Origin: a virus
DNA length: 23,752 bases
Virus record (IMG/VR): IMGVR_UViG_3300030333_006780
Coordinates: 28,960 to 52,711 of that record
Reading direction: 5' to 3' (one strand)
Below the pieces are notes generated by a model. It saw only the letters and a list, made by a program, of their open reading frames with translations. It was not told where the DNA came from and did not search any database. A program made the translations under genes and the position numbers. Shown here piece by piece: positions 1-22,132 of this stretch. Every line of letters begins with the position of its first letter. Within the stretch, counting starts at the first letter, position 1.

Positions 1-1659
1 ATCGGATTGACCATTTAACCCAATAACTTTTCTAGATGCATTTTCTATTGCTCCAGACCCTTTACCTGCATATAAGTCAAGCACTTCATTTCTACTATAC
101 TCTCTGCTTACTTGCGATATTTGAATAACTATCATATCCATATTAACAGCAAGATTTGACAATCCATGAGATACATATTTAATTCTTTCATACTCTCCTT
201 TATAGTTATGAGGAGTATCTACTAAATCAATATAATCTACAATGACTAAAGCTGGTTCTAACTCTCTTACCTTTTCAGATATTTTATCTAAAGTCGGTGA
301 TACAGTTTGAACCATTATATGCTCTAAGTTTTCCTTGTTGCTTTCATATATATTATGATAATTATCATTTACTTCTTGTTTTGTTTTTCCTGAGACTATT
401 TGAAGATGCCTTCTATGCATATACCAAGAGGATAACTCTAAACTTAGGAATAATGTAGGTATTTGCCAATCTTTTGATATTTTATTATTGACAAAGTCGA
501 CCCCTAATGCTAAATTTTGAGCAAAAGTAGTCTTATTAGAGCCTGTTGGTCCAAATATAGTTACTAACTCACCTGGATATATAACTGCCTCTTTTTTAAT
601 TCCTAATGCCCTACCTAGGTCTATAGTTTTACCACTGAAATCAGTAGTTAAACGCTCATGTAGTTCTCCTTGCATCTCATCTGCAGATTTAATATCTATT
701 AAATAGTCTTTTCTATTAAAGTACACACATTGAGTTTTGCAATGTTCCATCATTACTGTATCATGGCATCCATATCTATAATTTCTATTATAAACCTTTT
801 CAACCATTTCCATTATCTGATTTTCATTCATACTCTTGTTGTTCCAATGAAGCATACATACCTTAGCATAATGACTCGGTAATCCATTTCTTTTAAAATA
901 ACTTATTATTCTCATTGCTGTTATATGCCTACTTCCTTGACTAGCTCCTTTTTTTAACATTGATTGAACGCAAGGAACTATCTTGTTAGGTTCAGATATT
1001 TTATTAAATACTTGAACATCAGGAACTTCTTGTACAATAGAATGCTCTAACTCTCCATTACCCTTTAAATCGTGATAATTAAAATCAGCTCTATTGTTTT
1101 CAGCTAATTTTATTATATCATCACACTCTAAATTCATCACTTCATCTCTTGTTAGAGGTATTTTATATAATTCAGTTTTTTGATTTATAGTATGCTGAAC
1201 TCTATATATACCTGTTCTCATATAAATACTAGAATCTATATGTGGAGTTAATTTCTTTAGAGTTTGTTTAACTATATAAGGCAAATCTATACCAGCCTTA
1301 AAATTAAACAAGTCGCCTGATAATATAAGGTGGTATCCAGAGCCAGAAAAGTAGCATTGGAAACTTTCTTCCATAATGTCTGCCTCTTCCAGCTCCATGA
1401 TAACACTTCTCAAGATGTCTAGGGTTTTTTCGTTAGTATTATCACCTTTATCTATATCTATAGGTATTTTATCTATACTTCTTATTCCGAAATAATCTTT
1501 AAGAGTACCTTTTTTACTAACATACTCTAAAGCTTCTTCATCATATAAGTATACAGACCTATATAAAGGTTCTCCACTAATATAGTTACCAAGCTTATTA
1601 AAAGGTATTAATATACCTCTATTTGCTGGTGTACCTCTAGCAATCTCGACATACTTCAT
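1..1659 (-). CDS. Primase-helicase: AEP-like primase fused to DnaB-like helicase (3' end outside window)
   Basis: At least 553 residues, read as an uninterrupted frame from the ATG at 1659 to the window edge; the C-terminus is missing. It should make primers and unwind DNA at the phage fork. Residues about 60-115 show archaeo-eukaryotic primase hallmarks: an acidic pair in IDID (D68, D70) and FSGSGYH (104-110) with the expected Ser and His. Residues about 225-290 resemble a PriCT linker, followed by a Cys/His cluster (C298, H299, H306, C307, C311) that may bind zinc. The C-terminal half is a RecA-fold helicase with Walker A GPTGSNKTT (370-378) and Walker B LVIVD ending at D475. No Shine-Dalgarno site is seen; the start overlaps the upstream stop as ATGA, so translation is probably coupled. 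The domain calls come from motifs; the family assignment is inference. Confidence 0.85.
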   Translation of the reverse strand, partial: MKYVEIARGTPANRGILIPFNKLGNYISGEPLYRSVYLYDEEALEYVSKKGTLKDYFGIRSIDKIPIDIDKGDNTNEKTLDILRSVIMELEEADIMEESFQCYFSGSGYHLILSGDLFNFKAGIDLPYIVKQTLKKLTPHIDSSIYMRTGIYRVQHTINQKTELYKIPLTRDEVMNLECDDIIKLAENNRADFNYHDLKGNGELEHSIVQEVPDVQVFNKISEPNKIVPCVQSMLKKGASQGSRHITAMRIISYFKRNGLPSHYAKVCMLHWNNKSMNENQIMEMVEKVYNRNYRYGCHDTVMMEHCKTQCVYFNRKDYLIDIKSADEMQGELHERLTTDFSGKTIDLGRALGIKKEAVIYPGELVTIFGPTGSNKTTFAQNLALGVDFVNNKISKDWQIPTLFLSLELSSWYMHRRHLQIVSGKTKQEVNDNYHNIYESNKENLEHIMVQTVSPTLDKISEKVRELEPALVIVDYIDLVDTPHNYKGEYERIKYVSHGLSNLAVNMDMIVIQISQVSREYSRNEVLDLYAGKGSGAIENASRKVIGLNGQSD

Positions 1660-2249
1660 AGATTAGATAAACCGCTGCTAGACATTTCTGTTTTATTTTG
1701 AACTTCATCACTAAGCTCTTTTAAGTAGCCTTTTGACTTCATCCAAGTTACATCACTTTGCAGTTGAGCTTTATTTTTATCATTATTTTGATATATTTTA
1801 TTAAAAGCCCTAGTGTATGATTTACCACCAGTTTCTTTTGGTATTCCTTTATAGAAATATGCAAGATAATCCATATTTGGCTCTGTTTTTCCATTAGCTA
1901 TAACAAATTTATCATTTAAATATCTTGCTATATCTTCTATCTTATCACCATTTTCATCTTCCCATTCTCCATCTACGTTTATACCAGCTCCGCATCCTAA
2001 CTGTTCAAATACATGATACATTCTTTTAAGAACTGTTCCGCCTGTTATTTTACCATTTTCTCTTTCAAGGTTTCCTTTTATTTGAATAGTTCTATCATAA
2101 TCACTATTTTTCTGCTTAACTAATATTTCAATGAATAAGTCAGCCCATTCAAAATCTTTTGATTTATCTCTAAATTCTAAGATTCCAAACTCACATATTC
2201 CTAAATAATCATTGAAACTTCCGCTTGATTCAGGTTTAAATATCGCCAT
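1656..2249 (-). CDS. Probable ssDNA-binding (OB-fold-like) protein of the replication module
   Basis: The protein has 197 residues and starts with ATG after AAAGGAG. It overlaps the Sak4-like gene before it by one base (TAATG) and the primase gene after it by ATGA, so the three genes form a coupled replication and recombination unit. No catalytic motif is visible. The N-terminal 110 residues alternate short hydrophobic strands with charged turns and contain several aromatics (Y15, F21, F26, F33, W35), which fits a small beta-barrel. The C-terminus is charged and ends in a Ser-rich tail rather than the acidic tip of bacterial SSB. Phage Sak4 genes are commonly found beside an SSB, and that context is the main reason for the call. 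It could equally be another recombination accessory protein. Confidence 0.4.
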   Translation of the reverse strand: MAIFKPESSGSFNDYLGICEFGILEFRDKSKDFEWADLFIEILVKQKNSDYDRTIQIKGNLERENGKITGGTVLKRMYHVFEQLGCGAGINVDGEWEDENGDKIEDIARYLNDKFVIANGKTEPNMDYLAYFYKGIPKETGGKSYTRAFNKIYQNNDKNKAQLQSDVTWMKSKGYLKELSDEVQNKTEMSSSGLSNL

Positions 2250-3030: not shown

Positions 3031-3714
3031 CTATTTATACAAGGTCTTTTTCTCTAACATTGTAGTTGGAAAATTAAATGACAAAGCGGCTTCATAAGGT
3101 TGTTTTGTTAACACCTTTCGAACGGTATTTGCTATAAAACTTCCACTCATATTAGAGCAATAGCTTGTTGCTTTCATGTTGCATGGTTCAGAGCTTCCTT
3201 CATCATCTGAATACCACGTTTTCTTATATTTATCCAAGGAAGGAGATACAAACGTGTATTGTTGATAATGTTCAGCTCCCATCCTCCCATCAATTACCAT
3301 AAGAGGTTTACTTTCTTTCCAATTAGGTCTTTTAGCTAAGCATACTTCCATTGATTCTAGTCTTGATTTCATACTATCAAATCCTAATATGATAATATCA
3401 TTATTACTATTCCAATAATAATTGCTAAATAAACCAAAGTGCTCAGTTACATCTATTTCATGATTAATATCTGTTAGTAACTGTTTAAGAGCAGATGTTT
3501 TATTCATTCCAATATGACATTGATTGTATTGAGATACGCCTATATTCGCTGTCTCAACCTTATCCATATCATATAATGAGAAGTTTTCTGCTCCCATTCT
3601 ACATAACTGGGTAGCTGCAGAGCTTCCTATAGCTCCGCAACCCAGTATGTGAAAGTAATGTTCATGAAGGTTATCGACTAAACCTATTGAACGAGTGTTA
3701 ATGTAAGTAGCCAT
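3031..3714 (-). CDS. ThiF/E1-like activating enzyme of a phage ubiquitin-like system
   Basis: The product is 227 residues from the ATG at 3714. It should use ATP to adenylate the C-terminal glycine of the small beta-grasp protein in the same operon. Residues 22-30 form the Rossmann loop HILGCGAIG. Asp49 and Asp51 (YDMD) sit where E1 proteins bind ATP and magnesium, N57 follows, and K72 matches the conserved Lys of the IGxxK motif. D113 and R118 (DSMKSR) also fit the ThiF pattern. C178 and C186 are candidate thioester or metal residues. The usual NxxRQ arginine is not apparent (N57 to Q62 reads NIGVSQ). The longer frame to 3765 was rejected because GGGGAGG lies 5 bases before this ATG. The gene overlaps the JAB gene by 17 bases. 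ThiF-family membership is secure; the partner is inferred from context. Confidence 0.85.
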   Translation of the reverse strand: MATYINTRSIGLVDNLHEHYFHILGCGAIGSSAATQLCRMGAENFSLYDMDKVETANIGVSQYNQCHIGMNKTSALKQLLTDINHEIDVTEHFGLFSNYYWNSNNDIIILGFDSMKSRLESMEVCLAKRPNWKESKPLMVIDGRMGAEHYQQYTFVSPSLDKYKKTWYSDDEGSSEPCNMKATSYCSNMSGSFIANTVRKVLTKQPYEAALSFNFPTTMLEKKTLYK

Positions 3715-4618
3715 AATTACCTCCCCAAACATCAGTTTGATTTTGATAAGCTTCTTTTGTATCATTATCCTTAAATTCTAACAAATCTTCAGGAAAGATA
3801 CTACTTAACTTATTTATTATTGCTTGTTTAGAGCCTTTTGGAATCTTTATCTTGTAATCCTTTATTTTGTGATTTTTAATTTCACTATTTAAGAATTTCA
3901 TTTGGTCGTTAAAATCCTTAAAAGATAATGAATCACTCATAAATTCATCCATAGCGCTCTCTATTAACTCAAGTGTTTTGGAATAGTTGTTCATATCATT
4001 CCAATTGGGCATATTAGATTTAAAACTATTATTCCATATTGTTGTTTGATGATTATTCTTCCAGTTATTATGATGAGTAACATATGAATGTTTATCAGAA
4101 CATAATTCTTCATATTGTTCTTTCATTTTATCTGTTACTTTTATTCCATTTTTTCTTAATATATTTAATGGAATATCATAATGTTGAGCTATATTTAATC
4201 CAGCAGCTTTCCAAACACTTACTCTGAATTTATATTCCTCTTTAAGATTAACAACAAGTGCTAATGAAAAGGAGTCATTTTCCCAAGCTTCTATCTCTTT
4301 TACATCAGTTCCTGACCAGAATGCATCCATAGTGTGATGTGAGTGCCACCATACAAATTTCATATTAGGATTTTTATGCTTCATCCCGTATTTCATTTTA
4401 TATGCTGTAACTGCATCTCCATCTAACTCTGTATTGGAGCCACTATTTTCTTGCTTCATTATTTCTACATCGCCAATAATAAAGAATCCATCTTTATCAG
4501 GTACTGCTGTAGCTAAGCCTGATATTTCATTTTTATCTTCATCATATGCTAACTTAGCCCAAGATATTATTTCATACCAACTTTTCTCTTTAATATGAAA
4601 CATTTCTTCTAATTGCAT
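3698..4618 (-). CDS. JAB/JAMM metalloprotease (deubiquitinase-like)
   Basis: The product is 306 residues. It carries a complete JAMM zinc motif: E31, then H92-S93-H94, seven residues, S102, two residues, D105 (WWHSHH...WSGTD). In this family Zn is held by the two His and the Asp, and the Glu is the general base. Such enzymes cut after the C-terminal glycine of ubiquitin-like proteins. The C-terminal half (about 150-306) is Asn- and Lys-rich and unrecognised; it may recruit substrate. The ATG at 4618 is chosen over an upstream one because AAAGGAG lies 6 bases ahead and the previous stop overlaps it as TAATG. Because the Ubl partner already ends in Gly-Gly, the likely job is removing conjugates rather than maturing a precursor (inference). 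The metalloprotease fold is well supported. Confidence 0.88.
   Translation of the reverse strand: MQLEEMFHIKEKSWYEIISWAKLAYDEDKNEISGLATAVPDKDGFFIIGDVEIMKQENSGSNTELDGDAVTAYKMKYGMKHKNPNMKFVWWHSHHTMDAFWSGTDVKEIEAWENDSFSLALVVNLKEEYKFRVSVWKAAGLNIAQHYDIPLNILRKNGIKVTDKMKEQYEELCSDKHSYVTHHNNWKNNHQTTIWNNSFKSNMPNWNDMNNYSKTLELIESAMDEFMSDSLSFKDFNDQMKFLNSEIKNHKIKDYKIKIPKGSKQAIINKLSSIFPEDLLEFKDNDTKEAYQNQTDVWGGNYGYLH
3720..3726 (-). promoter_or_regulatory. Shine-Dalgarno site fixing the E1 start
   Basis: GGGGAGG on the minus strand lies 5 bases before the ATG at 3714, inside the end of the JAB gene. It decides between this start and the longer frame starting at 3765. Confidence 0.8.
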
Positions 4619-6183
4619 TACATACTCCTTTCTGTTGCCCATTGCAACATTCTCTGTTGTATTTGTTCTCTTGTTGGAGCTGATGCTTCTCCATCTCTAT
4701 CTGCTAATTCACCTCCATCTTCATCATTATAATATCCATAATCATTTAACATTTGATTTCCATATATATTATTACCATATGTATAATTTATCATTAAATG
4801 ATTTATGATTAACTCATCATCACTTAGATAGCTTGTATCTAATTCATAGTAATCAGCAATAGCATATTTCCAATCAGGTAAAGTTTTAATCCACCCTAAT
4901 AAAGATTCAGCTTGAAATCTACAATTTTCATCTGTAAATATGCTTTTAATATGCTGTGTTCTTACATATGATGAGCAGCTTTCCCTCCATTGACATTGCA
5001 TTCTATCACATTCGTCATTAGCCATATCTATTTGATTTGATATATGCATGTTTGATACAGGAAATCCTGAGTTTAATCCATATACTCTACGCAATCTATT
5101 CGAACAATTATCAGCTGAAATAGGAAATGCTCCTTTATATTCTTTAGTCATATATTCAGGCATCCCAAAATGCAATTCATAAGGCTGGTTGTATGGATTT
5201 GAATATTCAGTATTATAATAAGTAGCCCAAGACATTAAGTTCATTATCATTTCCATATAACTTATATTAGATAAATTACGTTTTACATCATCTAAATATC
5301 TATCTAAGCATACTGCTTGATAACTATATCTATTTGTATCATAATTATATCTAGCTTTTGCTATATATGGAAAACTAAAATATCGTCCTCCATCACTACA
5401 ATAATTATCGTTATATTCATTAGCTTGATATATTCCTTTAAATGAATAATTATTTTTCCTAGATACTTTTAAGAAATTGCTCATAGCATCTCTTAATTTA
5501 TTATGAATAACTATTCTTATAGGTTCTAAAGGAAGTTCTTGTATCTTGCTACTTTGATGGAATATATTCATTATTAAGCTATTTAATGTTATATCTAGAT
5601 AAAATGTAGAATTCCTAGGTGAATGTTCATCTATAAAAACATAAGGTTTTATAGATACATTTGGCCAAGCTTTTGTTACTTTATCACATTCTTCTAAAAC
5701 AACATTTCCGAAAGATTTTAAATTATCTGTATATTCTTCAATATCTACATTATACGGATAACCATCATTTTTTAAATTATACTTTAATCTTTCAAGCTCA
5801 TCAAAATTGCGTATTATATTATGCATACTCCATTCTGCATTATCTTTTGTTCTTTTGACAAACTTATATATCCCATTACTACGTTTGTTTAACTGTAATA
5901 TCTTTACTGTTAGCTCTCTTATTTTATCGTAAGTTCCTGGTCGCCAATTCCAAGATGGTGTAACAGAAATATCAAGAGAATCATCAACAGGCATATTATA
6001 ATAATTTCTACCTGCTGATATTCTCCTGATAAGTCCGTTAGTACTTTCTAACAACTGAAAGAATTCATCTTGAGGTCCTGTAGCGATAGCATTAGCTAAC
6101 TCTTGAGATGGTTCAGATAATACATCTAAATTATTAACATTTACCATTGTTAATCCATTATCGAAAGTTATACTATCGCTCAT
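4618..6183 (-). CDS. Large protein with candidate E2-like domain, Ubl cassette
   Basis: The product is 521 residues, starting 6 bases after AGGAGG. It is not confidently recognised. Residues about 220-340 read like an E2 conjugating core: beta strands, then RYFSFPYIAKARY (267-279), then AVCLDRYLDDV (290-300) with Cys292, a helix, and SNPYNQP (328-334). This recalls the ICLDIL segment and following helix and P/N turn of eukaryotic E2 proteins. The codon of Cys292 is at 5308-5310. A second Cys group (C392, C397, C403, C421) could bind metal, and the C-terminus is rich in Tyr, Asn and Asp. It is far longer than a usual E2 (about 150 residues), so the N-terminal 200 residues may recognise a target or act as an E3-like part. 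Its position between Ubl and JAB genes supports an E2 role. It could instead be a substrate or a structural protein. Confidence 0.5.
   Translation of the reverse strand: MSDSITFDNGLTMVNVNNLDVLSEPSQELANAIATGPQDEFFQLLESTNGLIRRISAGRNYYNMPVDDSLDISVTPSWNWRPGTYDKIRELTVKILQLNKRSNGIYKFVKRTKDNAEWSMHNIIRNFDELERLKYNLKNDGYPYNVDIEEYTDNLKSFGNVVLEECDKVTKAWPNVSIKPYVFIDEHSPRNSTFYLDITLNSLIMNIFHQSSKIQELPLEPIRIVIHNKLRDAMSNFLKVSRKNNYSFKGIYQANEYNDNYCSDGGRYFSFPYIAKARYNYDTNRYSYQAVCLDRYLDDVKRNLSNISYMEMIMNLMSWATYYNTEYSNPYNQPYELHFGMPEYMTKEYKGAFPISADNCSNRLRRVYGLNSGFPVSNMHISNQIDMANDECDRMQCQWRESCSSYVRTQHIKSIFTDENCRFQAESLLGWIKTLPDWKYAIADYYELDTSYLSDDELIINHLMINYTYGNNIYGNQMLNDYGYYNDEDGGELADRDGEASAPTREQIQQRMLQWATERSM
4625..4631 (-). 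promoter_or_regulatory. Shine-Dalgarno site fixing the JAB start
   Basis: AAAGGAG on the minus strand lies within the last codons of the E2-like gene, 6 bases before the ATG at 4618. It supports coupled translation and rejects the longer frame that starts at 4642. Confidence 0.75.
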
Positions 6184-6185
6184 AA

Positions 6186-6389
6186 TTAACCTCCTACTTT
6201 GTTATTAGATGTATATGCTACATAATCATTTTCAGACAATGAGAAATCATTTTGTCTGATAGTTCCACCGACATTAACTTGTGCTGATGTAGGAATTTCT
6301 AATTCATTCCTTAATTCTCCAACATTACTTGAAGATACATCTCGCGATGTGAACTCACCATTGTTTAAAAGATTGATTTTTATAGACAT
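6186..6389 (-). CDS. Ubiquitin-like beta-grasp protein ending in Gly-Gly
   Basis: The protein has 67 residues, the size of ThiS, MoaD and prokaryotic Ub-like proteins. It opens with a hydrophobic strand IKINLL, a hairpin, a helix about residues 22-30 (NVGELRNEL), then a strand at AQVNVGG and the segment DFSLSENDYVAY, which matches the NG...L..GD.V pattern of beta-grasp sulfur carriers and Ubls. The last two codons before TAA (6189-6194) encode Gly-Gly, the tail that E1 enzymes adenylate. A purine-rich AGGAAGGAAGG stretch precedes the ATG. It is the first gene of a tight operon with E2-like, JAB and E1 genes. A sulfur-carrier role as in ThiS is the main alternative, but no thiamine, molybdopterin or cysteine pathway gene is nearby. 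Confidence 0.8.
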   Translation of the reverse strand: MSIKINLLNNGEFTSRDVSSSNVGELRNELEIPTSAQVNVGGTIRQNDFSLSENDYVAYTSNNKVGG

Positions 6390-6410: not shown

Positions 6411-6764
6411 TTATCGGTTATTGTTAACTTCTTCTGCATAATATGTAGTGAAATAATCTCCATTCCAATTAAAGATATATCCCGCTCCATATAATGCTCT
6501 CATTTCATTGAATTTATCTCCAAAAGGCTTAAATGATTCTAATTGCTCTTTATACATTTCTTTATGTTCAAGAGCGCCTTTTAATGATTTCAATTCTTTA
6601 AACATTTGTTCTACTGATATTACTCTATTCATTAGAGTATTTACAGTTTTATTTAATATAGTATAATCAGGGACTATAGTATTTAATTTAACTGTGTGAA
6701 TCACTAGCCAAAATGTTAGCATTACTAATACTGCGAATACTGCTTGATTTGTTCTTCTTTGCAT
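6411..6764 (-). CDS. Membrane-anchored protein with C-terminal W-x-G-x-Y type domain, unknown function
   Basis: The product is 117 residues. Residues about 8-25 form one transmembrane helix preceded by two arginines, so the body probably faces the periplasm or outside (positive-inside rule). Residues 35-80 look helical or coiled-coil. The C-terminus FGDKFNEMRALYGAGYIF-NWNGDYFTTYYAEE (81-112) resembles a short domain known from phage proteins with the pattern F..A....G....F.W.G..Y.T. AAGGAG precedes the ATG by 5 bases. It lies 21 bases before the Ubl gene and overlaps a 51-aa ORF in another frame. Spanin-like or other lysis or envelope roles are possible, but nothing specific supports one. Confidence 0.65.
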   Translation of the reverse strand: MQRRTNQAVFAVLVMLTFWLVIHTVKLNTIVPDYTILNKTVNTLMNRVISVEQMFKELKSLKGALEHKEMYKEQLESFKPFGDKFNEMRALYGAGYIFNWNGDYFTTYYAEEVNNNR

Positions 6765-6969: not shown

Positions 6970-6973
6970 ATTG

Positions 6974-7045
6974 TTGCGGATAATGGAATCGAACCATTAA
7001 TTTCTAGCTTATGAGGCTAGCGTGAGACCACTTCACTCATCCGCA
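6974..7045 (-). tRNA. tRNA with CAT anticodon (elongator Met or Ile-CAT)
   Basis: The cloverleaf is complete on the minus strand: acceptor TGCGGAT with ATCCGCA (7 bp), D arm GTGA with TCAC, anticodon stem CTAGC with GCTAG and loop CTCATAA, five-base variable loop, T stem AATGG with CCATT and loop TTCGATT, discriminator A. It is 72 bases long and CCA is not encoded. The first acceptor pair is matched and the anticodon stem lacks the GGG/CCC run, so it is not an initiator. Whether it is Met or lysidine-modified Ile cannot be told from sequence by eye. Confidence 0.9.
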
Positions 7046-9449: not shown

Positions 9450-9785
9450 ATGAGCACAAATAACCCTAATATAGAGTTTTCAGAGTTTAGTAAGGACGTT
9501 TCACCTGTCTGGGCTAATCTATTGTATAAAGGAGCTAAAAACCCTAAAAAGGTAAGTAAAGGTATTGAAGCTATAAAAGGCGATAAAGACCTTTTATGGC
9601 AAGGATTGCTAGGAAAATCTTTATTAGATAGGTTTATTACTCCAGGTATCGATAGTTTACTTCCAGATAGTACTAAATTAGATGTTTTAAAGAGAGAATT
9701 TAAATTTTCTCCCACTAGGAAGTTAGATTTTACTTTGGGTAAAAGCGGTGATACTGCTAAATTAGGCTTTGACTGGAGGTTTTAA
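9450..9785 (+). CDS. Hypothetical 111-aa protein, first gene of the right arm
   Basis: Soluble protein with a helical N-terminal two thirds and a C-terminal basic strand-like segment (KFSPTRKLDFTLGKSG) ending in FDWRF. No Shine-Dalgarno site precedes the ATG; the upstream bases are the TATAGCT boxes, so translation may be leaderless or controlled. It is followed after 2 bases by the next gene. Its position ahead of the packaging genes suggests a virion or assembly part, but no family is recognised. Confidence 0.6.
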   Translation: MSTNNPNIEFSEFSKDVSPVWANLLYKGAKNPKKVSKGIEAIKGDKDLLWQGLLGKSLLDRFITPGIDSLLPDSTKLDVLKREFKFSPTRKLDFTLGKSGDTAKLGFDWRF

Positions 9786-9787
9786 TA

Positions 9788-10618
9788 TTGAAAGAATACA
9801 CTTACGAAGATGGTAGAGCTGGTAAAACAGGTGAAGACTGGACATCCTCAACTAGATATACTCCTGAAGAACTGGAGGCTATGGAATTAGCAAGAAGCTT
9901 AAAAAAAGAGCAAAGACGATTAAAAAGAGAGTCTAGGGGTAAGTTATTTTCAGGTTGGTCTCTTTTTGAAAACATGTTGGATGCAGTTGGAGGTAAAAAA
10001 GAAGATTATGACGAAATTGAAGCTCCTTTATATAAAGCTCCAGCATCTGGATTAGACAACAAGGCTAGATGGGCTATCGATAAAAAGAGAGTTTCTGATG
10101 CTATGGATAAAGGTACTGGCTCTGATGTAGCTGAAGATGTTGGTGAAGAGAAATTTGAGTATAAACCTGTAGATAATGTTACTACTACAGGTACTCCTAA
10201 ACAGGATTATAATAATTTAGGTGATTTAATATGGGTTGACACAGGTCAAAAGGTATCTGAATTTCCAGATGGTCCTTCTATGCCTGAATTAGAATTAGAT
10301 GAGGAGGGCTCTAAAGACCGAAAAAGACCTTTCAAAAGCTTATTAGAATGGATTAAATCTAAAAAAGATAAAGATAATGTATTAGACGTTGTTCAAAAGG
10401 TTTCTGAAGGAGCTAATTATCAAGATACATTAGAAAGTATTCAAAGGTCTGCAGGAGGTCAATGGTCAGACAATCCTTCTCCATGGGGAGAAAATTTATT
10501 TGGATATGCTTCTAGGAATTTTAATCAAGATATTAGTTTACCTACTTTTAATCCTTATATTCACCCATATTTAGGAACAGGTGGACTTTTTGGAGATGGA
10601 GGAATCAAATATAAATGA
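9788..10618 (+). CDS. Hypothetical 276-aa protein, TTG start
   Basis: The start codon is TTG at 9788, with GGAGG 8 bases upstream inside the end of the previous gene. The protein is hydrophilic and low in complexity: a Lys/Arg-rich helix near residues 35-52, acidic stretches in the middle, a charged block near 180-195, and a Gly-, Pro- and Tyr-rich tail with repeated PY and GG near 250-276. It has no membrane segment. It overlaps the lysozyme-like gene by 4 bases. The composition suits a virion-associated or internal protein (inference). No known family was recognised. Confidence 0.65.
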   Translation: MKEYTYEDGRAGKTGEDWTSSTRYTPEELEAMELARSLKKEQRRLKRESRGKLFSGWSLFENMLDAVGGKKEDYDEIEAPLYKAPASGLDNKARWAIDKKRVSDAMDKGTGSDVAEDVGEEKFEYKPVDNVTTTGTPKQDYNNLGDLIWVDTGQKVSEFPDGPSMPELELDEEGSKDRKRPFKSLLEWIKSKKDKDNVLDVVQKVSEGANYQDTLESIQRSAGGQWSDNPSPWGENLFGYASRNFNQDISLPTFNPYIHPYLGTGGLFGDGGIKYK

Positions 10619-11157
10619 ATTTTTTAGAAAAAATGTTACTAGGAATAGGTATTTTACCTCAAGATATGGAAAATGCCCTTAAAAATATGAAAGAGTTTTC
10701 TAATCAAGTAAGAATGATTGAGTCTGATAATAGAATTATGGCTGTTCCTAGAAAGAAAGATGGAACGCTTGCATCTACTGCTAAAGGAGTTTATCAATTT
10801 ACAGATACTAGTGTTCCTACAGGGATACAAAGAATGAGGAATATGGCTAGTAAATACGATGCATTTGATGATAGTTTTATAAATACAATTCCAATGAATC
10901 CTCAAGATTGGTCAGATGAACAAGCAAATGCTATGTTTTTTGCAAACTTATTTGCAGCTCCTGGTACTGATAGCGATTTAAAAGAAGTTTCTAAAGGTAG
11001 TATGTTAGCTAGGCATAATTTATATAAGAATGTTCATCATACCGATGCAGATGAAGCAACTATTGAAAGAATGTTAAAGTTTATACCAAGTTTAAACCAG
11101 CCTGTAGATGCTTTATTTGGAGAGAATACAAACTTAAATAGCGCATTTACAAAATAA
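10615..11157 (+). CDS. Lysozyme-like / lytic transglycosylase-like protein
   Basis: The protein has 180 residues. Residues 34-63 match the core of the lysozyme-like fold: MIESDN with Glu36 as the likely catalytic acid, then a short loop and STAKGVYQFTDTS (54-66), the AxGxxQF motif of SLT and related muramidases. There is no signal peptide, so it probably travels in the virion or needs a holin. It sits ahead of the terminase genes, not with a holin, which favours a virion-associated cell-wall enzyme that helps DNA entry (inference). The start overlaps the gene before it by ATGA, and its TAA overlaps the next ATG. The fold call rests on this motif; the specificity is unknown. Confidence 0.65.
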   Translation: MNFLEKMLLGIGILPQDMENALKNMKEFSNQVRMIESDNRIMAVPRKKDGTLASTAKGVYQFTDTSVPTGIQRMRNMASKYDAFDDSFINTIPMNPQDWSDEQANAMFFANLFAAPGTDSDLKEVSKGSMLARHNLYKNVHHTDADEATIERMLKFIPSLNQPVDALFGENTNLNSAFTK

Positions 11158-11906
11158 TGTATACAATAGATATACACCACAAAGGTGATAAGGAACCTAC
11201 TGCTTATAAGGTTTATAGAAGAGAGGAAGCAGATGAAAGAAATATTATATACAAGACCTGGAAAGAAGCAGGAGAAGGAGATTATGCACTCTCCGATGAT
11301 AACTACGTGGCTAAGGTCATCACTAAGTGTACCTATAAGCCTACTAGCGTCTATATTCGTCTTCCCTATGGTTATACTTTCTATAACCCTAATTATAGCT
11401 CCGTTAAGCTTAATGCTTCAGGGAGGAAAGCTAATAATACAATATCTGGCAAAACTCATTGGGAAGTGTTATCAGGTGGTCAAAAAATGAAAAATCTAGC
11501 TATGGTCTATGCTCAGACCATGGATTATGATAAGACAATAAATCACGTTCTAGATAATCCAACTGATAATCAAAAGATTATGTGGAAGAAAAGAATGAAA
11601 AAGGAGAAGTTTAAAGATATGGTAAGAGACGAACTACAAAAGTTACTTCAAGACCATGGCCTTACAGAGGCTTATACTTTAGAGTTACTTGAAGAAACTA
11701 TTAAAAAAGCTAAAGATAAAGGTGATATTACTAATTTAATGAGAGCTGTAGACAACTTGCAAGATATGCATGGTATGAAAGATAAGCATCTTGTTAAAAC
11801 AGTAGAACAAATAGAAGCAACAAGCAATGTTAAACTTATAGATGAATTAAGGGAAGAGGAAGAGAAGCTTATAGCTACTAAAACTATTACTAAAAGTGAA
11901 GATTAG
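11157..11906 (+). CDS. Probable terminase small subunit
   Basis: The protein has 249 residues and lies directly before the large terminase, which is the usual place for the DNA-recognition subunit. Residues about 135-225 are strongly helical and charged (for example KKAKDKGDITNLMRAVDNLQ), followed by an acidic C-terminus as in many small terminases that bind the large subunit. The first 90 residues are strand-rich with many Tyr and may be an added domain. No Shine-Dalgarno site is seen, but start and stop overlap the neighbours by one base. Identification is mostly by position. Confidence 0.6.
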   Translation: MYTIDIHHKGDKEPTAYKVYRREEADERNIIYKTWKEAGEGDYALSDDNYVAKVITKCTYKPTSVYIRLPYGYTFYNPNYSSVKLNASGRKANNTISGKTHWEVLSGGQKMKNLAMVYAQTMDYDKTINHVLDNPTDNQKIMWKKRMKKEKFKDMVRDELQKLLQDHGLTEAYTLELLEETIKKAKDKGDITNLMRAVDNLQDMHGMKDKHLVKTVEQIEATSNVKLIDELREEEEKLIATKTITKSED

Positions 11907-13405
11907 TGGATTACGAAGAAAAATATGAGCAGTTACAAGCTCTTAAGAAATTACGTAATAACATGGCTTTGTTTGGTAAACATTGCTTTCCTACTGCACT
12001 TAAAAAAGCAACACCCCCATTTCATAATGAGGTGTATGCAAATCTATCAAATGATGATAAACGTAGGGTTCTTATAGCAGCTCCTCGTGGTACAGCTAAA
12101 TCTACTGTTACTACACTTATATTTCCATTGTGGAAAGCTGCTTTTAAGTCTAGCACAGATGAATTATTTATAGTTATAGTATCTGAGTCTCAAGCTCAGT
12201 CTATAAACTTCCTATCTAGAATTAAATATCATTTAACTCATTCTGATAAATTTAGAGATATATTTGGTGATTTAGGTCCTAATACTGCTAAAAGATGGAC
12301 ACATACAGATATAGTACTTGCTAATGGGACAAGAATGATAGCAGTAGGTACAGGACAAAGAGTTAGGGGTTTTATTGAAGGTGATACACGACCTAACTTG
12401 ATTATAGTAGATGACTTTGAATCAGAGTTAAATGCATATACGCCTGAAGCTAGAGCTAAGAATAGGAAATGGATGACAGAAGCTGTAATACCATCTTTAT
12501 CAGATGAAGGTAGAATAGCTATGATTGGAACGGTAATATCAGAAGATTGTTTCTTATGCTGGGCAAAAGAATCCAGCGCATGGAATGTTCTTTGGTATTC
12601 TATATGGGACGAAGACGAGAAAAGTATTTGGCCTGAAAGATTTCCTAGAGAAAGGATATTGGCCATAAAGGACGAATTTTCGTCCGTAGGGAATATTAAT
12701 GGATTCTATCAAGAATACATGAATATAGCCCAATCTCCTGATGATGCACCTTTTCAACCAGATTGGATTAAAATACATCATTATGATTATGAAAGAATAC
12801 AAGGTCAAAATTTATTAATTAAAAATAAGGGGTTAGAAAATGAAGAAACAAAACCCGTGGAGCTCTATACTGGTGTTGACCCTGCGAGCTCTTTGTCTAC
12901 TAGGGCTGATTATTTTGTCATCGCTACTATTGCAATTGATAGCGATAATAACAAGTATATAGTAGATATTTATAGAAATAGAATATCTCCAGCTGAACAA
13001 CCAAGTATTATAATAGATACTTATAAAAAGTTTAAACCAAGAAGAATTAAAGTTGAAACAGTAGGTTATCAAGAGGCTTTAAGAACAGCAGTTAGAGAAT
13101 TAATGAGAGAAGAAAATTTATACATACCAGGTCTAGAAGCTGGTGTGAAACCAAGAAATAGTAAATCAGAAAGATTATTGTCGCTAGTTCCTCTATTTGC
13201 TAAAGGGACGTTTTACTTTAGACCAGAGGATATAAAAGCACAACAAGAGTTTTTATCTTATCCAAAAGGAAGAAATGATGATATTATGGACGCTATATGG
13301 ACAGCTTTAGATGGTGCGAAGCCATGTAGAATCAAGGAATTTGAACGATTGTCAGAAGATGATTGGAGAAATAACAAGAAAACTCTTGATTGGATGACAA
13401 TGTAA
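11906..13405 (+). CDS. Terminase large subunit
   Basis: The protein has 499 residues and a GTG start overlapping the previous TAG. It is the packaging motor ATPase and nuclease. Walker A is APRGTAKST (59-67), the deviant phage form, and Walker B is LIIVDD (165-170) followed by E172. The RNase H-like nuclease has Asp325 in YTGVDPASS, Glu384 in KVET, and the Asp cluster RNDDIMD (456-462). Length and motif order are normal for the T4 gp17 and related group, so it is intact. It uses procapsids assembled from the next genes and cuts the DNA concatemer. Confidence 0.95.
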   Translation: MDYEEKYEQLQALKKLRNNMALFGKHCFPTALKKATPPFHNEVYANLSNDDKRRVLIAAPRGTAKSTVTTLIFPLWKAAFKSSTDELFIVIVSESQAQSINFLSRIKYHLTHSDKFRDIFGDLGPNTAKRWTHTDIVLANGTRMIAVGTGQRVRGFIEGDTRPNLIIVDDFESELNAYTPEARAKNRKWMTEAVIPSLSDEGRIAMIGTVISEDCFLCWAKESSAWNVLWYSIWDEDEKSIWPERFPRERILAIKDEFSSVGNINGFYQEYMNIAQSPDDAPFQPDWIKIHHYDYERIQGQNLLIKNKGLENEETKPVELYTGVDPASSLSTRADYFVIATIAIDSDNNKYIVDIYRNRISPAEQPSIIIDTYKKFKPRRIKVETVGYQEALRTAVRELMREENLYIPGLEAGVKPRNSKSERLLSLVPLFAKGTFYFRPEDIKAQQEFLSYPKGRNDDIMDAIWTALDGAKPCRIKEFERLSEDDWRNNKKTLDWMTM

Positions 13406-13421
13406 TTCGTAAATTAAGCAT

Positions 13422-15647
13422 ATGGCATATACCAAAAAAGACGGCAAAACAGCAAATAATATAGTAGATGAAACATTAGACCTATTCGATAAATACTCTA
13501 GCAAAAGAGATACTTGGGCTAATCAAGCCAAAGAAGATAAAGAATTTAGACTAGGTAGGCAATGGACTGCAGAGCAGAGGGACACACTTGAATCTAGAGG
13601 TCAAGCTCCTATTGTTATAAACAGAGTTCATCCTGCGGTAGAATCTGCTAAAGCAATGCTTACAGCTAATAGACCTTCATTTAGAGCTGCTCCTAGAGAG
13701 GATTCTGATAATAAAGTAGCTCAAGTTATGAGTGCTTTGATGCAGTATATGTACGATATATCAGATGGAAGAACAGTTGTAAGGCAAGCTGTAGATGATT
13801 ATTATGTTATGGGGGTTGGATACATTCAAGTATATCAAGACCCTATGATGGATATGGGTAAAGGTGAGGTTTGTTTTCATGATGTAGACCCATTAGATGT
13901 ATATGTTGACCCTAATAGTCGACATAGGTTTTTTGACGATGCTGAAAATATTATAGTTTCTAAACTTTTTACAAAAGACCAGGCTAAAAAGCTATGGCCT
14001 ATGTATGCTAAAGCCATTGATAATGCAGCAGATGATAGTGGAACTAGATTTGATTTTAATGCGGCTTCTACCGAACGCGAAGATGATGGTGAAGTTCAAT
14101 TCCCAGAAGATGTAGGAAGATTAAATAATCAAGATTATATCAGAGGTTATGAGAGATATTACAAAGTAGATGTTACTGAATATAGAACATTTGAATCCTT
14201 TTCTGGGAAAGAAGAATTATTAGAGGAAGATGCATATGATAGTTATTTAGAGAGACCTGCTTGGATTATTGAAGGTAATGTTATAACAGATGAAAAAATA
14301 GCTAACAATCTATATGAGCAATTATCTATGCATAGACAGCAAGTAATGGCTCAAAAAGTTCAGGAGATGCTTTATGTTGGTTATTCAGAAAAAGAGGCTT
14401 TAACATTAGCTGAGGAGGAGACTCCTAATATAGATATGGAAGTTATTACCTTCGCAGAATTAGTTGAAAGAGGTCAAATCAATATAGTTAAAATAACTAG
14501 AAAAAAAGTTAAACAGTGTGTTATCGTAGGTGATACTCATCTGTATTCAAGAGTATTACCACTAGAGGATTATCCAATAGTCCCTATTATGAATGTACAT
14601 ACAAGAACACCTTATCCTGTATCTGATGTTAGAATGATTAAAGGATTACAAGAATATATAAATAAAACACGCTCTTTGATAATAGCTCATGCTACAACAA
14701 GTACAAATACTAAAATATTAGTACCTGAAGGTAGTGTCGATATGAAAGATTTTGAAGAGAAATGGGCTCAACCTGGAGTTGCAATTCCTTATGACCCCAC
14801 AGATGGAGCTCCTATGCCAGTTCAGCCCACACCTCTTCCTAATGAGTTGTACCAAAATGAGTTAACTGCAAAAAATGATATTGACCATGCTTTAGGTTTA
14901 TATGAGATGATGATGGGTAATTCTCAAGCAGCACCACAAACTTATAAAGCAACAATAAGTATAGATGAATTTGGACAAAGAAAAATGAAATCTAAGCTTG
15001 CTGACATTGAAGCAGCTTTGACAAGAGTTGGTCAAATATCTATACCTCTAATGCAACAACTATATACTACTCAGAAGGTATTTAGAGTAGTACAACCTAA
15101 TAATTCTATCAATGAATATGTTATTAATAAGAAATTAGTAGATGATAAAACAGGTGAAATAGAAGTTATGAATGACATTACAGTTGGAAAGTATGATGTC
15201 ATAGTTGTCACAGGTTCTACATTACCTTCAAATAGATATGCTGAATTAGAATTCTATATGGATGCATATCAAAAAGGCATAATAGATAGACAAGAAGTTC
15301 TTAAGAAAACCGAAGTATTTGATATGGAAGGTGTAATGCAAAGAACTGATATGATTCAACAGCTACAAGAAGCTTTAAAGAAAACTCAAGAAGAGAATAA
15401 AAAGCTTAAAGGAGATTTGCAAACTAGAGATAGAGAAGCTGTTAATCTTAGAAAGAGAGTTGAAGTTGAGAAATTCAAAGGAGGTCTTGACCAAGTTAGT
15501 AATAAAGCTAAAGCGGCAGGAACTATATTTGAAAAACGTCTTGATGACAACTTAGCCACTGTTAAGACGCAGATTAAAGATGCGGCAAACAAAATAAGCT
15601 CACCTCCTTCAGGTGGCAAAGGAGCAGCTAAAAGGAGAAAGAAATAA
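13422..15647 (+). CDS. Portal protein (P22-like)
   Basis: The protein has 741 residues, the length of P22-type portals. The N-terminus (WANQAKEDKEFRLGRQWT, 32-49) and the segment with QAPIVINR and VESAKAMLTANRP (about 61-84) are typical of this family. A VDPLDVYVDP element (about residue 160) lies in the wing, and a long helical coiled coil with a Lys-rich tail occupies about 640-741. It forms the dodecameric vertex ring through which DNA is packed. The start lacks a clear ribosome site and comes 16 bases after the terminase stop. It overlaps the scaffold gene by one base. The portal call is secure; the P22 subgroup is by size and pattern. Confidence 0.9.
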   Translation: MAYTKKDGKTANNIVDETLDLFDKYSSKRDTWANQAKEDKEFRLGRQWTAEQRDTLESRGQAPIVINRVHPAVESAKAMLTANRPSFRAAPREDSDNKVAQVMSALMQYMYDISDGRTVVRQAVDDYYVMGVGYIQVYQDPMMDMGKGEVCFHDVDPLDVYVDPNSRHRFFDDAENIIVSKLFTKDQAKKLWPMYAKAIDNAADDSGTRFDFNAASTEREDDGEVQFPEDVGRLNNQDYIRGYERYYKVDVTEYRTFESFSGKEELLEEDAYDSYLERPAWIIEGNVITDEKIANNLYEQLSMHRQQVMAQKVQEMLYVGYSEKEALTLAEEETPNIDMEVITFAELVERGQINIVKITRKKVKQCVIVGDTHLYSRVLPLEDYPIVPIMNVHTRTPYPVSDVRMIKGLQEYINKTRSLIIAHATTSTNTKILVPEGSVDMKDFEEKWAQPGVAIPYDPTDGAPMPVQPTPLPNELYQNELTAKNDIDHALGLYEMMMGNSQAAPQTYKATISIDEFGQRKMKSKLADIEAALTRVGQISIPLMQQLYTTQKVFRVVQPNNSINEYVINKKLVDDKTGEIEVMNDITVGKYDVIVVTGSTLPSNRYAELEFYMDAYQKGIIDRQEVLKKTEVFDMEGVMQRTDMIQQLQEALKKTQEENKKLKGDLQTRDREAVNLRKRVEVEKFKGGLDQVSNKAKAAGTIFEKRLDDNLATVKTQIKDAANKISSPPSGGKGAAKRRKK

Positions 15648-16588
15648 TGACACAAGATAATATACGAACAGATACCCCTCAAGAAACTTCTAATGAGCAA
15701 GAGTTTGCTTCTTTAGAAGAGGCTGTATTTAATACACCTATCGAGGGCTCTAATAGTATTGAAGGTGCTTTTACTAGTGGAAATGAAGGAAATACTGAAT
15801 CAGCTCCAGAAATTGGACAACCTGAGACAAGTAATGATGAAGCTACTCAACAACCAACTCAAACTAATAATGATGAGACTCGCTATCAATATTGGCAGTC
15901 TCAAGCAGATAAATATAAAAATGAGTTAGAAGCAATAAAGCAACAGCAAGCAGCTCCAGTTCAACCTGAAGCTCCTGCTCAACCTGCTGAACCTGCAGTT
16001 GAAGAGTTTCCTCCAGCTCCTCCAAAGCCACAACAACCTAGAACTTTTAATCGAGAAGAAGCATATAATGACCCTTCTAGTGAAAGTGCTAGGTATTTAG
16101 ATGAGTTAGAAGGATGGCGTGATGATATAACTGAATATAATTCTCTTAAATCTCAATATCAAACAGCTATTATTGAAGATAAATTCAAGAAAATGGAACA
16201 AGCAAGAATTGAAGAAGCTAAGAAACAACAAGCTGCTCAACAGATTGCTCAACAAACAGCTGAAGTTAAGTCTCATGTAATGGGACATCATGGTATGAGT
16301 GAAAGCGAAGCAAATGATTTTATAAAGAAAATGTCAGACCCTAATTCAATTAGTGTTGATAATCTTGTTCACTTGTATAGGATGAATAACGGAGGAACTA
16401 CTCAACAAGCAACTCCTTCTCAAACTACTCCTAGTGATACCTTTCAACAAACTAGAAATGCTCAGCAAGTGCCATCTCCTATGGGAGTAATGCCTTCTGG
16501 GAATACTAATGTAGATGGAAGAAGTATTGAGGACAAGATGATAGATACAATGATAGGGAATTTTAATAGTAAAAACCCTTGGAAATAA
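15647..16588 (+). CDS. Capsid scaffolding protein
   Basis: The protein has 313 residues and lies between portal and major capsid genes, the standard scaffold position. It is hydrophilic, rich in Gln, Glu, Pro and Asn, with a Pro-rich linker near residues 100-130 and a helical coiled coil near 165-205. The C-terminus (about 295-313) ends in an amphipathic helix plus NPWK, like the coat-binding end of scaffolds. No protease motif is visible. It should guide procapsid assembly and leave before or during packaging. The start overlaps the portal stop (TAATG) and GGAG lies upstream. Confidence 0.8.
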   Translation: MTQDNIRTDTPQETSNEQEFASLEEAVFNTPIEGSNSIEGAFTSGNEGNTESAPEIGQPETSNDEATQQPTQTNNDETRYQYWQSQADKYKNELEAIKQQQAAPVQPEAPAQPAEPAVEEFPPAPPKPQQPRTFNREEAYNDPSSESARYLDELEGWRDDITEYNSLKSQYQTAIIEDKFKKMEQARIEEAKKQQAAQQIAQQTAEVKSHVMGHHGMSESEANDFIKKMSDPNSISVDNLVHLYRMNNGGTTQQATPSQTTPSDTFQQTRNAQQVPSPMGVMPSGNTNVDGRSIEDKMIDTMIGNFNSKNPWK

Positions 16589-16599
16589 CTTAATTAACA

Positions 16600-16638
16600 G
16601 CCCTACCCGAAGGTCTAATAAGACAGCTGAAGATGGGC
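16600..16638 (+). promoter_or_regulatory. Leader hairpin before the major capsid gene
   Basis: In the 70-bp gap GCCC (16600-16603) can pair with GGGC (16635-16638), enclosing GTCT-AATA-AGAC (16613-16624). It precedes the AAGGA ribosome site. It may raise or protect the capsid message, but the stems are short. Confidence 0.4.
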
Positions 16639-16658
16639 ATAAATAAGGATGGAATCAA

Positions 16659-18023
16659 ATGGGAACATTTTTTTCAGGTCAAGCTGGTAACGATGTCGCC
16701 TCTAGTGTTGATATTAACGATACTAGGCGTAAGTTTAACTTTGGCGAAAGAGTTGCAGAGCTTGCTCCACAACAAAGTCCATTCTTCGTATATTTATCGA
16801 AGGTGGCAAAAAAAGCTACTAATGACCCTGTGTTCAAATTTCTTGAGCAAAGACATCAGTGGCAAAGACGTAATTTTGAAGTTAATTCTTCTGTAACTTG
16901 GACATTTGAAGGAGGTCCTACTATTGCTGATGCAGATTCAGACAATCTTGTAATAGATTGCGGATATGACCAATATGGTAAAGTCCAATCTAATAATGCT
17001 TGTCATTTCTTACTGCCAAATACTGTATTTTCAATGAAAGCTGATAATGGTAATGTTTATACATTTAGAATAGCTGCTGATGCAACTATTGCACATAGTG
17101 GTACTGATGGTACAAATGGTATAACTACTATTACTGTAACAGGTGGTGGAGATGAGATTGTGCCTTTAGACACTCCTACATCTGGAACTTTGACGTTTTC
17201 TGCTGGAAATGCTGGTCAATTGGTCGGTAGTGCATTTGCTGAGGGAACAGATAGTCCAAATGGTTGGGAAGATAAATTATATGACAGAGAAGGATATTGT
17301 CAAATATTCAAAACTGGAATGAACATCTTCTCAGGAACTTCTTTAGCTACTGAATATAGAGGTATTGCTAATGAGTTTCAAAGAATTTGGCAAGATAAAC
17401 TAATGGAACACAAGATGGATATAGAACAAGCCATGTTATTTAGTTATGGTGGTTCTTCTAATGAGCAATCTACAAGCGCTCCTTTAAGAACAACTTGGGG
17501 TATCGTACCTTATACTCAAACCTATGGTAAGATTTATAATCTGTCTTATGCTACATCAGGATATGATGCTTTCTTAGATGCAATGGAAGACTATTTTGCA
17601 CCTGAGTCTGGTAATAGTGGTGATAAGCTAGTATTAGCTTCAAGAAAAGTTATTACTTACTTAAATAAATTAGGTGCTGGTAGCTTCTTGAACAATTCTG
17701 TTGGTTCATCTCAATATCGATTAGACGTAAATAGTATTCCTGGTGCTTATGGGCATCAAGTAACAATGGTAAATACTATATTTGGTAATTTACACTTTAT
17801 TCAAGAGCCTTTATTAAGAGGACCTTGGGAAGATTATTGTGTATGTGTTGATTTGAAAAATGTAGCTTACAGACCACTTATGGGTAATGGTGTTAGTCGA
17901 GACACTTTCATTGAAACTAACGTACAAGACAACGGCGTTGATGGTAGACAAGACCAAATCATCACTGAAGCTGGCTTGGAAATTAGTTTGCCTGAAACTC
18001 ATGCAATTCTTAAGTTTTCTTAA
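16659..18023 (+). CDS. Major capsid protein
   Basis: The protein has 454 residues and follows the scaffold. The N-terminus has FGERVAELAPQQSPFFVYLSK (about 28-48), an element I associate with HK97-fold coat proteins of aquatic phages, followed by a charged helix and a beta-rich body. The late part contains a long strand and helix region (YRLDVNSIPGAYGHQVTMVN, about 349-368) as in the P domain and spine. It is the shell subunit. AAGGA lies 9 bases before the ATG. It is the only gene in this module of the right size and place, so the call is safe although the HK97 fold is inferred. Confidence 0.88.
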   Translation: MGTFFSGQAGNDVASSVDINDTRRKFNFGERVAELAPQQSPFFVYLSKVAKKATNDPVFKFLEQRHQWQRRNFEVNSSVTWTFEGGPTIADADSDNLVIDCGYDQYGKVQSNNACHFLLPNTVFSMKADNGNVYTFRIAADATIAHSGTDGTNGITTITVTGGGDEIVPLDTPTSGTLTFSAGNAGQLVGSAFAEGTDSPNGWEDKLYDREGYCQIFKTGMNIFSGTSLATEYRGIANEFQRIWQDKLMEHKMDIEQAMLFSYGGSSNEQSTSAPLRTTWGIVPYTQTYGKIYNLSYATSGYDAFLDAMEDYFAPESGNSGDKLVLASRKVITYLNKLGAGSFLNNSVGSSQYRLDVNSIPGAYGHQVTMVNTIFGNLHFIQEPLLRGPWEDYCVCVDLKNVAYRPLMGNGVSRDTFIETNVQDNGVDGRQDQIITEAGLEISLPETHAILKFS

Positions 18024-18037
18024 GGAAGGAGTGAATA

Positions 18038-18532
18038 ATGGCAAGTGTACAAAGTGATAATGGATGGACTAAAACTGAACTTGGTGATGGTTGGGTAAAA
18101 CTAACTGAGGTATGTGATGCTTTTAGCACTGGCGGTACTGATGATGTAAAAACAACTGCAATTACAAACGCAACAGCAAATGCCGTTACTGATGGGCCTA
18201 CAATGCCTATTATTAATGAATTAAAAGCTGCTGGTGAGTTTATAATTGAAGTAGTACTCGGAGCTGGTACTATATCGGCAGATGTACATCTGTATGCTAA
18301 AAATAGTGCTGGAACTTACCAAGCGCTCTCTTCTGACTTAATAGCTGATGCTGGAGCAAGTTCAACAAGTATTGTTTCGTATAGCGGGGCAATAACTAAT
18401 GGCTTAAAGGTTGTAGTAGAAAAAGATAGTGGTACAGCAGCAAATCCGCTTACAGTATCTTTAATCTATTATAATGGAGGTCCTAATCAATCAGATGTTA
18501 CAATATCAGGTGTAGGTGCTGACCCATCATAG
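18038..18532 (+). CDS. Probable head decoration or virion protein
   Basis: The protein has 164 residues, rich in Ala, Gly, Ser and Thr and with the strand alternation of a beta-sandwich. It lies 14 bases after the capsid gene with a strong AAGGAGTGAATA ribosome site. The N-terminus has a charged GDGWVKLTE hairpin. Phage genes just after the capsid commonly encode decoration or cement proteins, which suits it. There is no recognised family, and a tail component is possible. Confidence 0.55.
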   Translation: MASVQSDNGWTKTELGDGWVKLTEVCDAFSTGGTDDVKTTAITNATANAVTDGPTMPIINELKAAGEFIIEVVLGAGTISADVHLYAKNSAGTYQALSSDLIADAGASSTSIVSYSGAITNGLKVVVEKDSGTAANPLTVSLIYYNGGPNQSDVTISGVGADPS

Positions 18533-18552
18533 TGGTTAGTTTAATTAATAAC

Positions 18553-18579
18553 GTATATGGGGCCTTGTGCCCCATGTAC
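18553..18579 (+). repeat. 11-bp hairpin between two virion genes
   Basis: GTATATGGGGC (18553-18563) pairs with GCCCCATGTAC (18569-18579) with one G-T pair and loop CTTGT. The following bases are ATAAATTT rather than a T-run, so termination would be weak. It could tune expression of the genes that follow or block RNA decay. Confidence 0.7.
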
Positions 18580-18600
18580 ATAAATTTAGGAGGAAGATAA

Positions 18601-20450: not shown

Positions 20451-20473
20451 TTTTTTATAATAAAGGAGATAAA

Positions 20474-22125: not shown

Positions 22126-22132
22126 GAGATAG

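Follow-up and report, generated by a model that had tools for sequence, protein, structure and literature searches.

A four-gene phage cassette that probably encodes a ubiquitin-like conjugation-deconjugation pathway

The IMG/VR virus record IMGVR_UViG_3300030333_006780 (52,711 bp) was analyzed over bases 28960-52711, and this whole stretch of 23,752 nucleotides is referred to here as the window. Four adjacent, co-directional genes on its minus strand (3031-6389) encode a ubiquitin-like protein (Ubl), a large protein with an E2-like cysteine motif, a JAB/JAMM metallopeptidase and a ThiF/E1 adenylyltransferase, and judging from the sequences of the parts we consider it probable (roughly two chances in three) that they form a complete viral pathway for Ubl conjugation and deconjugation. 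All four open reading frames (ORFs) were confirmed where a first-pass annotation, made from the DNA alone, had placed them. The parts list itself is already known; what sets the window's cassette apart is its ownership by phages, a different and unrecognized family of E2-like proteins, and a fixed place in the replication module.

Results

A scan of IMG/VR with a profile of the E1 found relatives encoded by 404 contigs, 80 of which were kept for analysis; neighbors were counted only where the flanking sequence sufficed, and loci of one contig were collapsed. JAB lies upstream of E1 in 75/75 assessable relatives and is itself preceded by the E2-like gene in 51/51, while the complete order Ubl-E2-JAB-E1 occurs in 41 of 42, counts that do not represent independent events since many of the contigs are related. 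In the sole exception (L012), a recognizable Ubl was not found in the 1 kb upstream. The order holds while identity to the window's E2-like protein drops to 15-20%. Because it recurs in those 41 relatives and in every assessable crAss-like relative (see below), the four-gene arrangement is far beyond chance. Homologs of all four genes thus co-occur in hundreds of phages, as the gene-order search proposed in the first-pass annotation was meant to reveal, and the view expressed there that such a location seems rare for a complete set must be given up: both the phage family of the window and crAss-like phages of the Steigviridae type carry it as a standard feature of the replication arm.

The Ubl gene (6186-6389, minus strand) encodes a 67-amino acid (aa) protein with the C-terminus ...NNKVGG. 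Its AlphaFold2 model has a mean predicted local distance difference test score (pLDDT) of 87.9 and consists of a single domain, arranged strand-strand-helix-strand-strand-strand, with a floppy tail. In a Foldseek comparison with the Protein Data Bank (PDB), the best match was Mth1743 (1ryj; E=7e-4), followed by Caldiarchaeum ubiquitin, SUMO, NEDD8 and ThiS; the model therefore agrees with the earlier description of this protein as a β-grasp protein ending in Gly-Gly. Pfam ThiS matches the Ubl in 8 of 38 relatives (best E=1.6e-4). The Gly-Gly is kept in 50/50 relatives, and 14 of these extend 1-13 residues past it (e.g., GGKEVK, GGSK and GGDKE), as if they were precursors matured by the JAB peptidase. 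With 97% identity to its nearest relative and a nonsynonymous divergence (dN) of 0.013, the Ubl ranks among the slowest-changing members of the cassette. In the window, the tail codons GGA GGT double as the Shine-Dalgarno sequence of the E2-like gene. We rejected the possibility that this ribosome-binding site dictates the Gly-Gly, since it is retained in relatives whose Ubl-E2 spacing has a median of 117 nt.

Gene boundaries within the cassette are tightly coupled. The JAB gene (3698-4618, minus strand) probably starts at 4618, later than its longest ORF (start at 4642), because the stop codon of the E2-like gene and the JAB start overlap as TAATG at 4620-4616 with AAGGAG upstream. The E1 gene (3031-3714, minus strand) probably starts at 3714 rather than at the start of its longest ORF (3765; 244 aa), because GGGGAGG precedes the ATG at 3714. 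Both enzyme assignments of the first-pass annotation were borne out. The JAB ORF matches Prok-JAB at E=9.4e-4, under the curated cut-off, and its JAMM residues E39, H100, S101, H102, S110 and D113 (E-HSH-x7-SGTD) are invariant in 81/81 full-length relatives, consistent with the JAMM/MPN+ pattern E ... H-x-H-x7-S-x2-D. A JAB profile that included the crAss-like members had as its best solved relatives structures of Rpn11, the proteasomal deubiquitinase (E=4.3e-6). The E1 matches Pfam ThiF at E=1.2e-20, and its profile matches MccB (the best solved relative, 2e-14), UBA5, UBA6, ThiF, MoeB and Cap2, as well as Citrobacter BubCD (E=1e-7). R25 (a candidate Arg finger), G42, G44, G47, D66, D68, K89 and D130 are invariant in 93/93 relatives, leaving GxGxxG, DxD and the equivalents of MoeB Lys86 and Asp130 all intact; C195, a C-terminal candidate catalytic residue (numbered on the 244-aa ORF), is equally invariant (93/93).

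The large protein is the weakest leg of the claim and is called E2-like, not E2. Its gene (4618-6183, minus strand) encodes 521 aa that include ...YQAVCLDRY..., with a core at ~148-345 and C292 as candidate active-site residue. Pro272, Cys292, Trp319 and Cys397 are invariant in an alignment of 51-61 relatives (C292 and P272 in 61/61). C292 lies within [HFY]P[YF][IVL]-x(n)-[GS]x[VIT]C[LFM][DSG], and Trp319 follows exactly 27 residues downstream (51/51). The signature of E2 enzymes is HPNI...GxICLDIL, which the Cys motif of the family resembles, with the Asn of HPN replaced by Tyr or Phe; an invariant Cys downstream of an HPN-like motif is thus present, and C292 would be the catalytic residue. 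The AlphaFold2 model (pLDDT 83) has a helix at 148-172, five strands at 176-229, a loop bearing the Pro and Cys, and two helices, and the four best folds in a Foldseek search of the PDB were E2-variant (UEV) domains of TSG101/Vps23. None of the E2 models in Pfam, PHROGs, NCBIfam and PADLOC matched the 521-aa protein, a profile of the E2-like core had no match among PDB sequences, and a control search for Prok-E2_B was negative in every genome and thus carries no weight. What remains of the original reading of the Cys-Leu-Asp segment is an invariant Cys in a predicted E2-like topology, but not a significant match to a solved E2.

Relatives of the E2-like protein were reached via E1 neighbors only; a single-sequence search found none, because the protein diverges too fast. 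In the closest pair, its dN is 0.216 vs. 0.01-0.035 for Ubl, JAB and E1, a much higher rate of change that would fit changing targets. Residues 1-80 are conserved and residues 401-480 are ~40% identical. Behind the core, most members carry a 4-Cys cluster (C360/C392/C397/C403; C...C-x4-C-x5-C) that could bind zinc.

The E1 also matches proteins of Steigviridae crAss-like phages and Flavobacterium phages at ~30% identity. In crAss001, the order gp79-gp78-gp77-gp76 corresponds to a Ubl-like protein, a protein at the position of the E2-like gene, a JAB and an E1. The gp77 (‘metalloprotease’) matches Prok-JAB at 5e-4 and gp76 (‘thiamine biosynthesis’) matches ThiF at 8e-16, and both are homologous to their counterparts in the window. 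The gp79 and gp78 are annotated as hypothetical; gp79 has a Ubl-like N-terminus ending KKIKSG, then an extension. A scan of the gp78 family found 47 loci with Ubl in 45/45, JAB in 34/34 and E1 in 34/34 assessable cases, and the family has its own invariant motif, HSH...PC-x-G, with the Cys present in 51/51. These phages therefore share with the window the order and the four kinds of protein, whereas their E2-like family is divergent and their Ubl tail reads K-[KNQ]-[IV]-x-SG followed by ~100 aa, where the window's Ubl ends in GG. The Ubl of crAss-like phages may work without its extension, as suggested by phage cr106_1, where a 92-aa Ubl ORF stops two residues past SG and the remaining extension forms a separate ORF. 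At this locus (L019:2695-3898), the SG is closely followed by a gene annotated as HNH endonuclease, likely a mobile-element insertion. In Foldseek comparisons of the window's E2-like protein with viral models, direct relatives were followed by a 420-aa protein (E=1.5e-3), equal in length to the FpV4 protein, and the same list held a crAss-like protein and a 435-aa cr128_1 protein, the length of the cr128_1 gp78 homolog. From these models, the window and crAss-like E2-like families are probably the same. Ubiquitin goes unmentioned in the record annotations, in one crAss-like genome analysis and in one Crassvirales review.

A third group is represented by the Xanthomonas jumbo phage PhiXhv-12. 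It encodes a protein ending ASGG whose last 65 residues are Ubl-like, so that by its sequence this Ubl needs no trimming; an 892-aa protein with HPHM...HGSLCLGSF; and a ThiF enzyme that shares the DGRMGA motif. When the E2-like core of the window's family was aligned with the 892-aa protein by hhalign, exactly HPHM...HGSLCLGSF was picked (P=0.018). JAB was not found in the PhiXhv-12 record. The C-terminus of the 892-aa protein (L129:4700-5000) is very Cys-rich and recalls a zinc-binding E3-like module behind the E2-like motif. The PhiXhv-12 set adjoins topoisomerase genes, and in all three groups the cassette is found among genes for primase, Sak4, uracil-DNA glycosylase, exonuclease, ribonucleotide reductase or topoisomerase. 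A scan of 84,980 prokaryote species for a cellular host of the cassette, a method that needs near-exact peptides, gave a crAss-like phage contig as its sole match, and a search for a cellular source on plasmids gave generic ThiF matches only. The contig (L128; SABI01000248.1), although placed in a Spirochaetia metagenome-assembled genome bin, is a crAss-like phage fragment, with the genes for ThiF, the following protein and uracil-DNA glycosylase arranged as in crAss001.

Genomic Context

Directly downstream of the cassette, on the same strand, lies a gene for a Sak4-like single-stranded DNA annealing ATPase (2249-2920; phrog_124, 1.6e-32; AAA_24, 1.5e-25), which adjoins the cassette in nearly all relatives. 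It is followed by a 197-aa protein (1656-2249, minus strand), conserved in position and without a significant Pfam or PHROG match, and by a primase-helicase with a DnaB-like C-terminal part (1-1659, minus strand; phrog_19, 4.8e-29; phrog_16345 primase, 1.8e-20), whose ORF extends past the window edge and whose position is likewise conserved. On the plus strand, the right part of the window (9450-23752) carries the genes for terminase, portal and major head protein. Searches for promoters and terminators yielded no signal beyond chance level. The strand block that holds the cassette also contains, upstream of it, the gene of a 117-aa protein directly beside the Ubl gene (6411-6764, minus strand) and a tRNA-Met (CAT) gene (6973-7045, minus strand). 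The 117-aa protein has an N-terminal hydrophobic segment and is conserved in the close relatives L001 (69%) and L003 (51%), but weakly or not elsewhere.

The two ends of the record overlap by 89 bp, 88 of them identical (window 23664-23752 vs. L126:1-89, the start of the record), so the phage genome is probably complete or circularly permuted. The rest of the genome contains giant ORFs of 2931 and 3192 aa (L126:4821-13616; record ~15977-25555). A 62-aa CxxC...HxxC protein encoded outside the window (L127:11555-11740, minus strand) is also found in L001, L003 and L007; it has a weak RING-like Pfam match (E=0.008) and could be an E3-like partner or a small zinc finger. Shine-Dalgarno-like tetramers precede 15/18 window genes vs. 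2/16 genes in crAss001 and 0/16 in FpV4, and because of this difference the host of the window's phage is probably not a member of the Bacteroidota, although crAss-like carriers of the same cassette infect that phylum.

Discussion

In the proposed pathway, the JAB peptidase would trim any residues that follow the C-terminal glycines of a Ubl precursor, and the ThiF/E1 would adenylate the exposed glycine and might hold the Ubl on C195. The Ubl would then move to C292 of the E2-like protein, which might bind targets through its long N-terminal helices and 4-Cys cluster and would attach the Ubl to a lysine or other nucleophile of specific proteins; JAB would later take it off again. Activation, transfer and removal are what established ubiquitin biochemistry would predict from these parts, and we infer E2 activity, the order of the steps and the targets. 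Given the gene context, the targets are most likely phage replication and recombination proteins, or host DNA-metabolism proteins that meet them. The first-pass annotation had named three outcomes that would speak against a conjugation cassette (no β-grasp prediction for the small protein, no E2-like fold or exposed Cys in the large one, and genes that never occur together), and none of them was observed.

Several results nevertheless weigh against a complete pathway. The 521-aa protein has no significant E2 match in Pfam or among PDB sequences, and its UEV fold matches are not significant either (E=0.2-0.7, probability 0.38-0.75 and template modeling scores of 0.38-0.42 by target). An hhalign comparison of the window family with the crAss-like E2 candidates aligns the motifs, but with P=0.017 and a probability of 2.7%; in a column-shuffle null, the observed score was reached or exceeded in 1/60 cases for the E2 (an odd outlier) and 0/60 for the Ubl, which lends mild support. 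The residue equivalent to MoeB Arg73 (NLxRQ), the canonical ATP-contacting E1 Arg that corresponds to Arg515 of human UBA1 (PMC12355090), is Val in 88, Gly in 3 and Cys in 2 of the 93 E1 relatives. Because the window's Ubl has nothing after GG, maturation there would not require the JAB. Neither an E3 nor a proteasome partner was identified.

The Bub operon described by Ye et al. 2026 reportedly unites E1, E2, Ubl and JAB. Complete Ubl/E2/JAB/E1 sets are known in bacteria as operon type 6d (PMC1779556), Bil (PMC11354881) and Bub (PMC13373217). Bub is a bacterial, putatively immune operon, often accompanied by CapW, CapH/P or CapK/S regulators (PMC13373217); such regulators were not seen at the window's cassette, whose genes lie in a phage replication block, and the comparison is by E1 profile similarity (BubCD, as above) and description. 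Bil (BilA Ubl, BilB E2, BilC JAB and BilD E1) resembles the window's set in having four functions in one operon, a JAB deconjugase and a thioester-type E2 Cys. BilA, however, comprises two Ubl domains and the motif CEHH is present in BilB (PMC11354881), whereas the window's Ubl is a single domain and the 521-aa E2-like protein lacks CEHH; moreover, Bil is encoded by the host against phage. PADLOC Bil models matched no window protein among the matches listed at E<0.1, and the crAss001 E1 matches BilD at 2.5e-5. Operon type 6d places Ub-like, E2-like, JAB and E1-like proteins in separate adjacent genes (PMC1779556, Table 1 row 6d), and this type of Iyer et al. 2006 appears to be the PRTRC group. 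NCBIfam PRTRC_ThiF gave 22 bits (cut-off 145) and PRTRC_A 14 bits (cut-off 102), with no match for PRTRC B or C, and by these models the window's proteins would be placed in neither PRTRC nor Bil. That both nevertheless have similar parts, as first remarked from the sequence, is correct, the same four functions being found in neighboring genes (PMC1779556, PMC11354881). CBASS Cap2/Cap3 shares with the window a related E1 domain and a JAB partner; Cap2, in which E1 and E2 are fused, conjugates a CD-NTase (PMC12355090), whereas the window encodes E1 and E2-like protein separately and has a Ubl as the tag.

The same biochemistry could instead serve counter-defense, either as an early weapon that tags host defense proteins and so disables them or as a decoy Ubl and JAB that strip and jam Bil or CBASS conjugation. 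Bacteria do turn Ubl-like conjugation on phage (PMC10097602, CBASS), the cassette sits in an early-type gene block, and the fast change of the E2-like protein is as in an arms race or host adaptation. Counter-defense genes are usually patchy, however, whereas almost every assessable relative has this set, and in three phage groups it keeps a fixed place next to replication genes; no known anti-defense genes were seen close by, and a decoy or deubiquitinase alone would need neither E1 nor E2. We consider such a role unlikely, if well worth keeping in mind. A sulfur relay has a lower standing and would be surprising: the Ubl would be a carrier of the ThiS/Urm1/TtuB type that is thiocarboxylated by the E1 and released from protein fusions by JAB, thiolation of a tRNA, cofactor or amino acid would be the outcome, and the large protein would serve as an acceptor, not as an E2. 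ThiS is indeed the Ubl's nearest Pfam family, ThiS and TtuB are among its fold matches, the best NCBIfam models for the E1 are ThiF, and triplets of Ubl, E1 and JAB are known from sulfur metabolism (PMC1779556). Yet the cassette contains no thiolation enzyme, rhodanese and cysteine-desulfurase domains (two Pfam families) were absent from the window's record, crAss001 and FpV4 while controls were positive, and the second position always holds an invariant Cys in an E2-like motif.

Chemistry by the E1 alone, with ThiF adenylating the Ubl or a peptide on the way to a product that is not a protein, in the manner of MccB, and the large protein acting as a scaffold without E2 activity, would account for the rank of MccB among solved relatives and for the failure of sequence comparisons to give significant E2 homology. 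A protein tag is the better fit for a JAMM isopeptidase that has Rpn11 as its closest relative and for the tails after GG, and the Cys, Pro and Trp of the E2-like core are invariant; we give this explanation little credence. Least probable of all is a virion assembly module akin to lambda tail proteins I (Ubl) and K (JAB), which are phage-encoded like the window's proteins. Phage tail operons do carry isolated Ubl and JAB domains (PMC1779556), in line with the first-pass annotation. Lambda-type sets, though, lack E1 and E2 and have a different role in a tail operon (PMC1779556), and the cassette lies on the strand opposite the structural block, beside replication genes, so that gene content and position largely refute this idea.

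A viral conjugation pathway thus accounts best for the parts as we weigh them. Its presence in several large tailed-phage groups allows the tentative further suggestion, one that we hold possible although on balance doubtful, that it is an old, virus-specific Ubl pathway fixed in the replication module and modifying replication and recombination proteins. In eukaryotes, ubiquitin and SUMO modify proteins at replication forks, and if the suggestion is true, a phage pathway would modify replication proteins in the same manner. A full phage-encoded set was unreported in the open-access literature searched, the scope of which did not extend to Hor 2024, Chambers 2024 (Bil) or Ye 2026 (Bub). The known complete bacterial cassettes belong to the host and some act against phage; here, the whole Ubl-E2-JAB-E1 set would be owned by viruses, in at least two large groups. 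Cultured gut crAss-like phages (crAss001 and DAC15) carry these genes, annotated only as hypothetical, metalloprotease or thiamine biosynthesis, and whether phages tag proteins with a Ubl, and which ones, is directly testable in them. Viral lineages may now enter the question of how ubiquitin systems originated.

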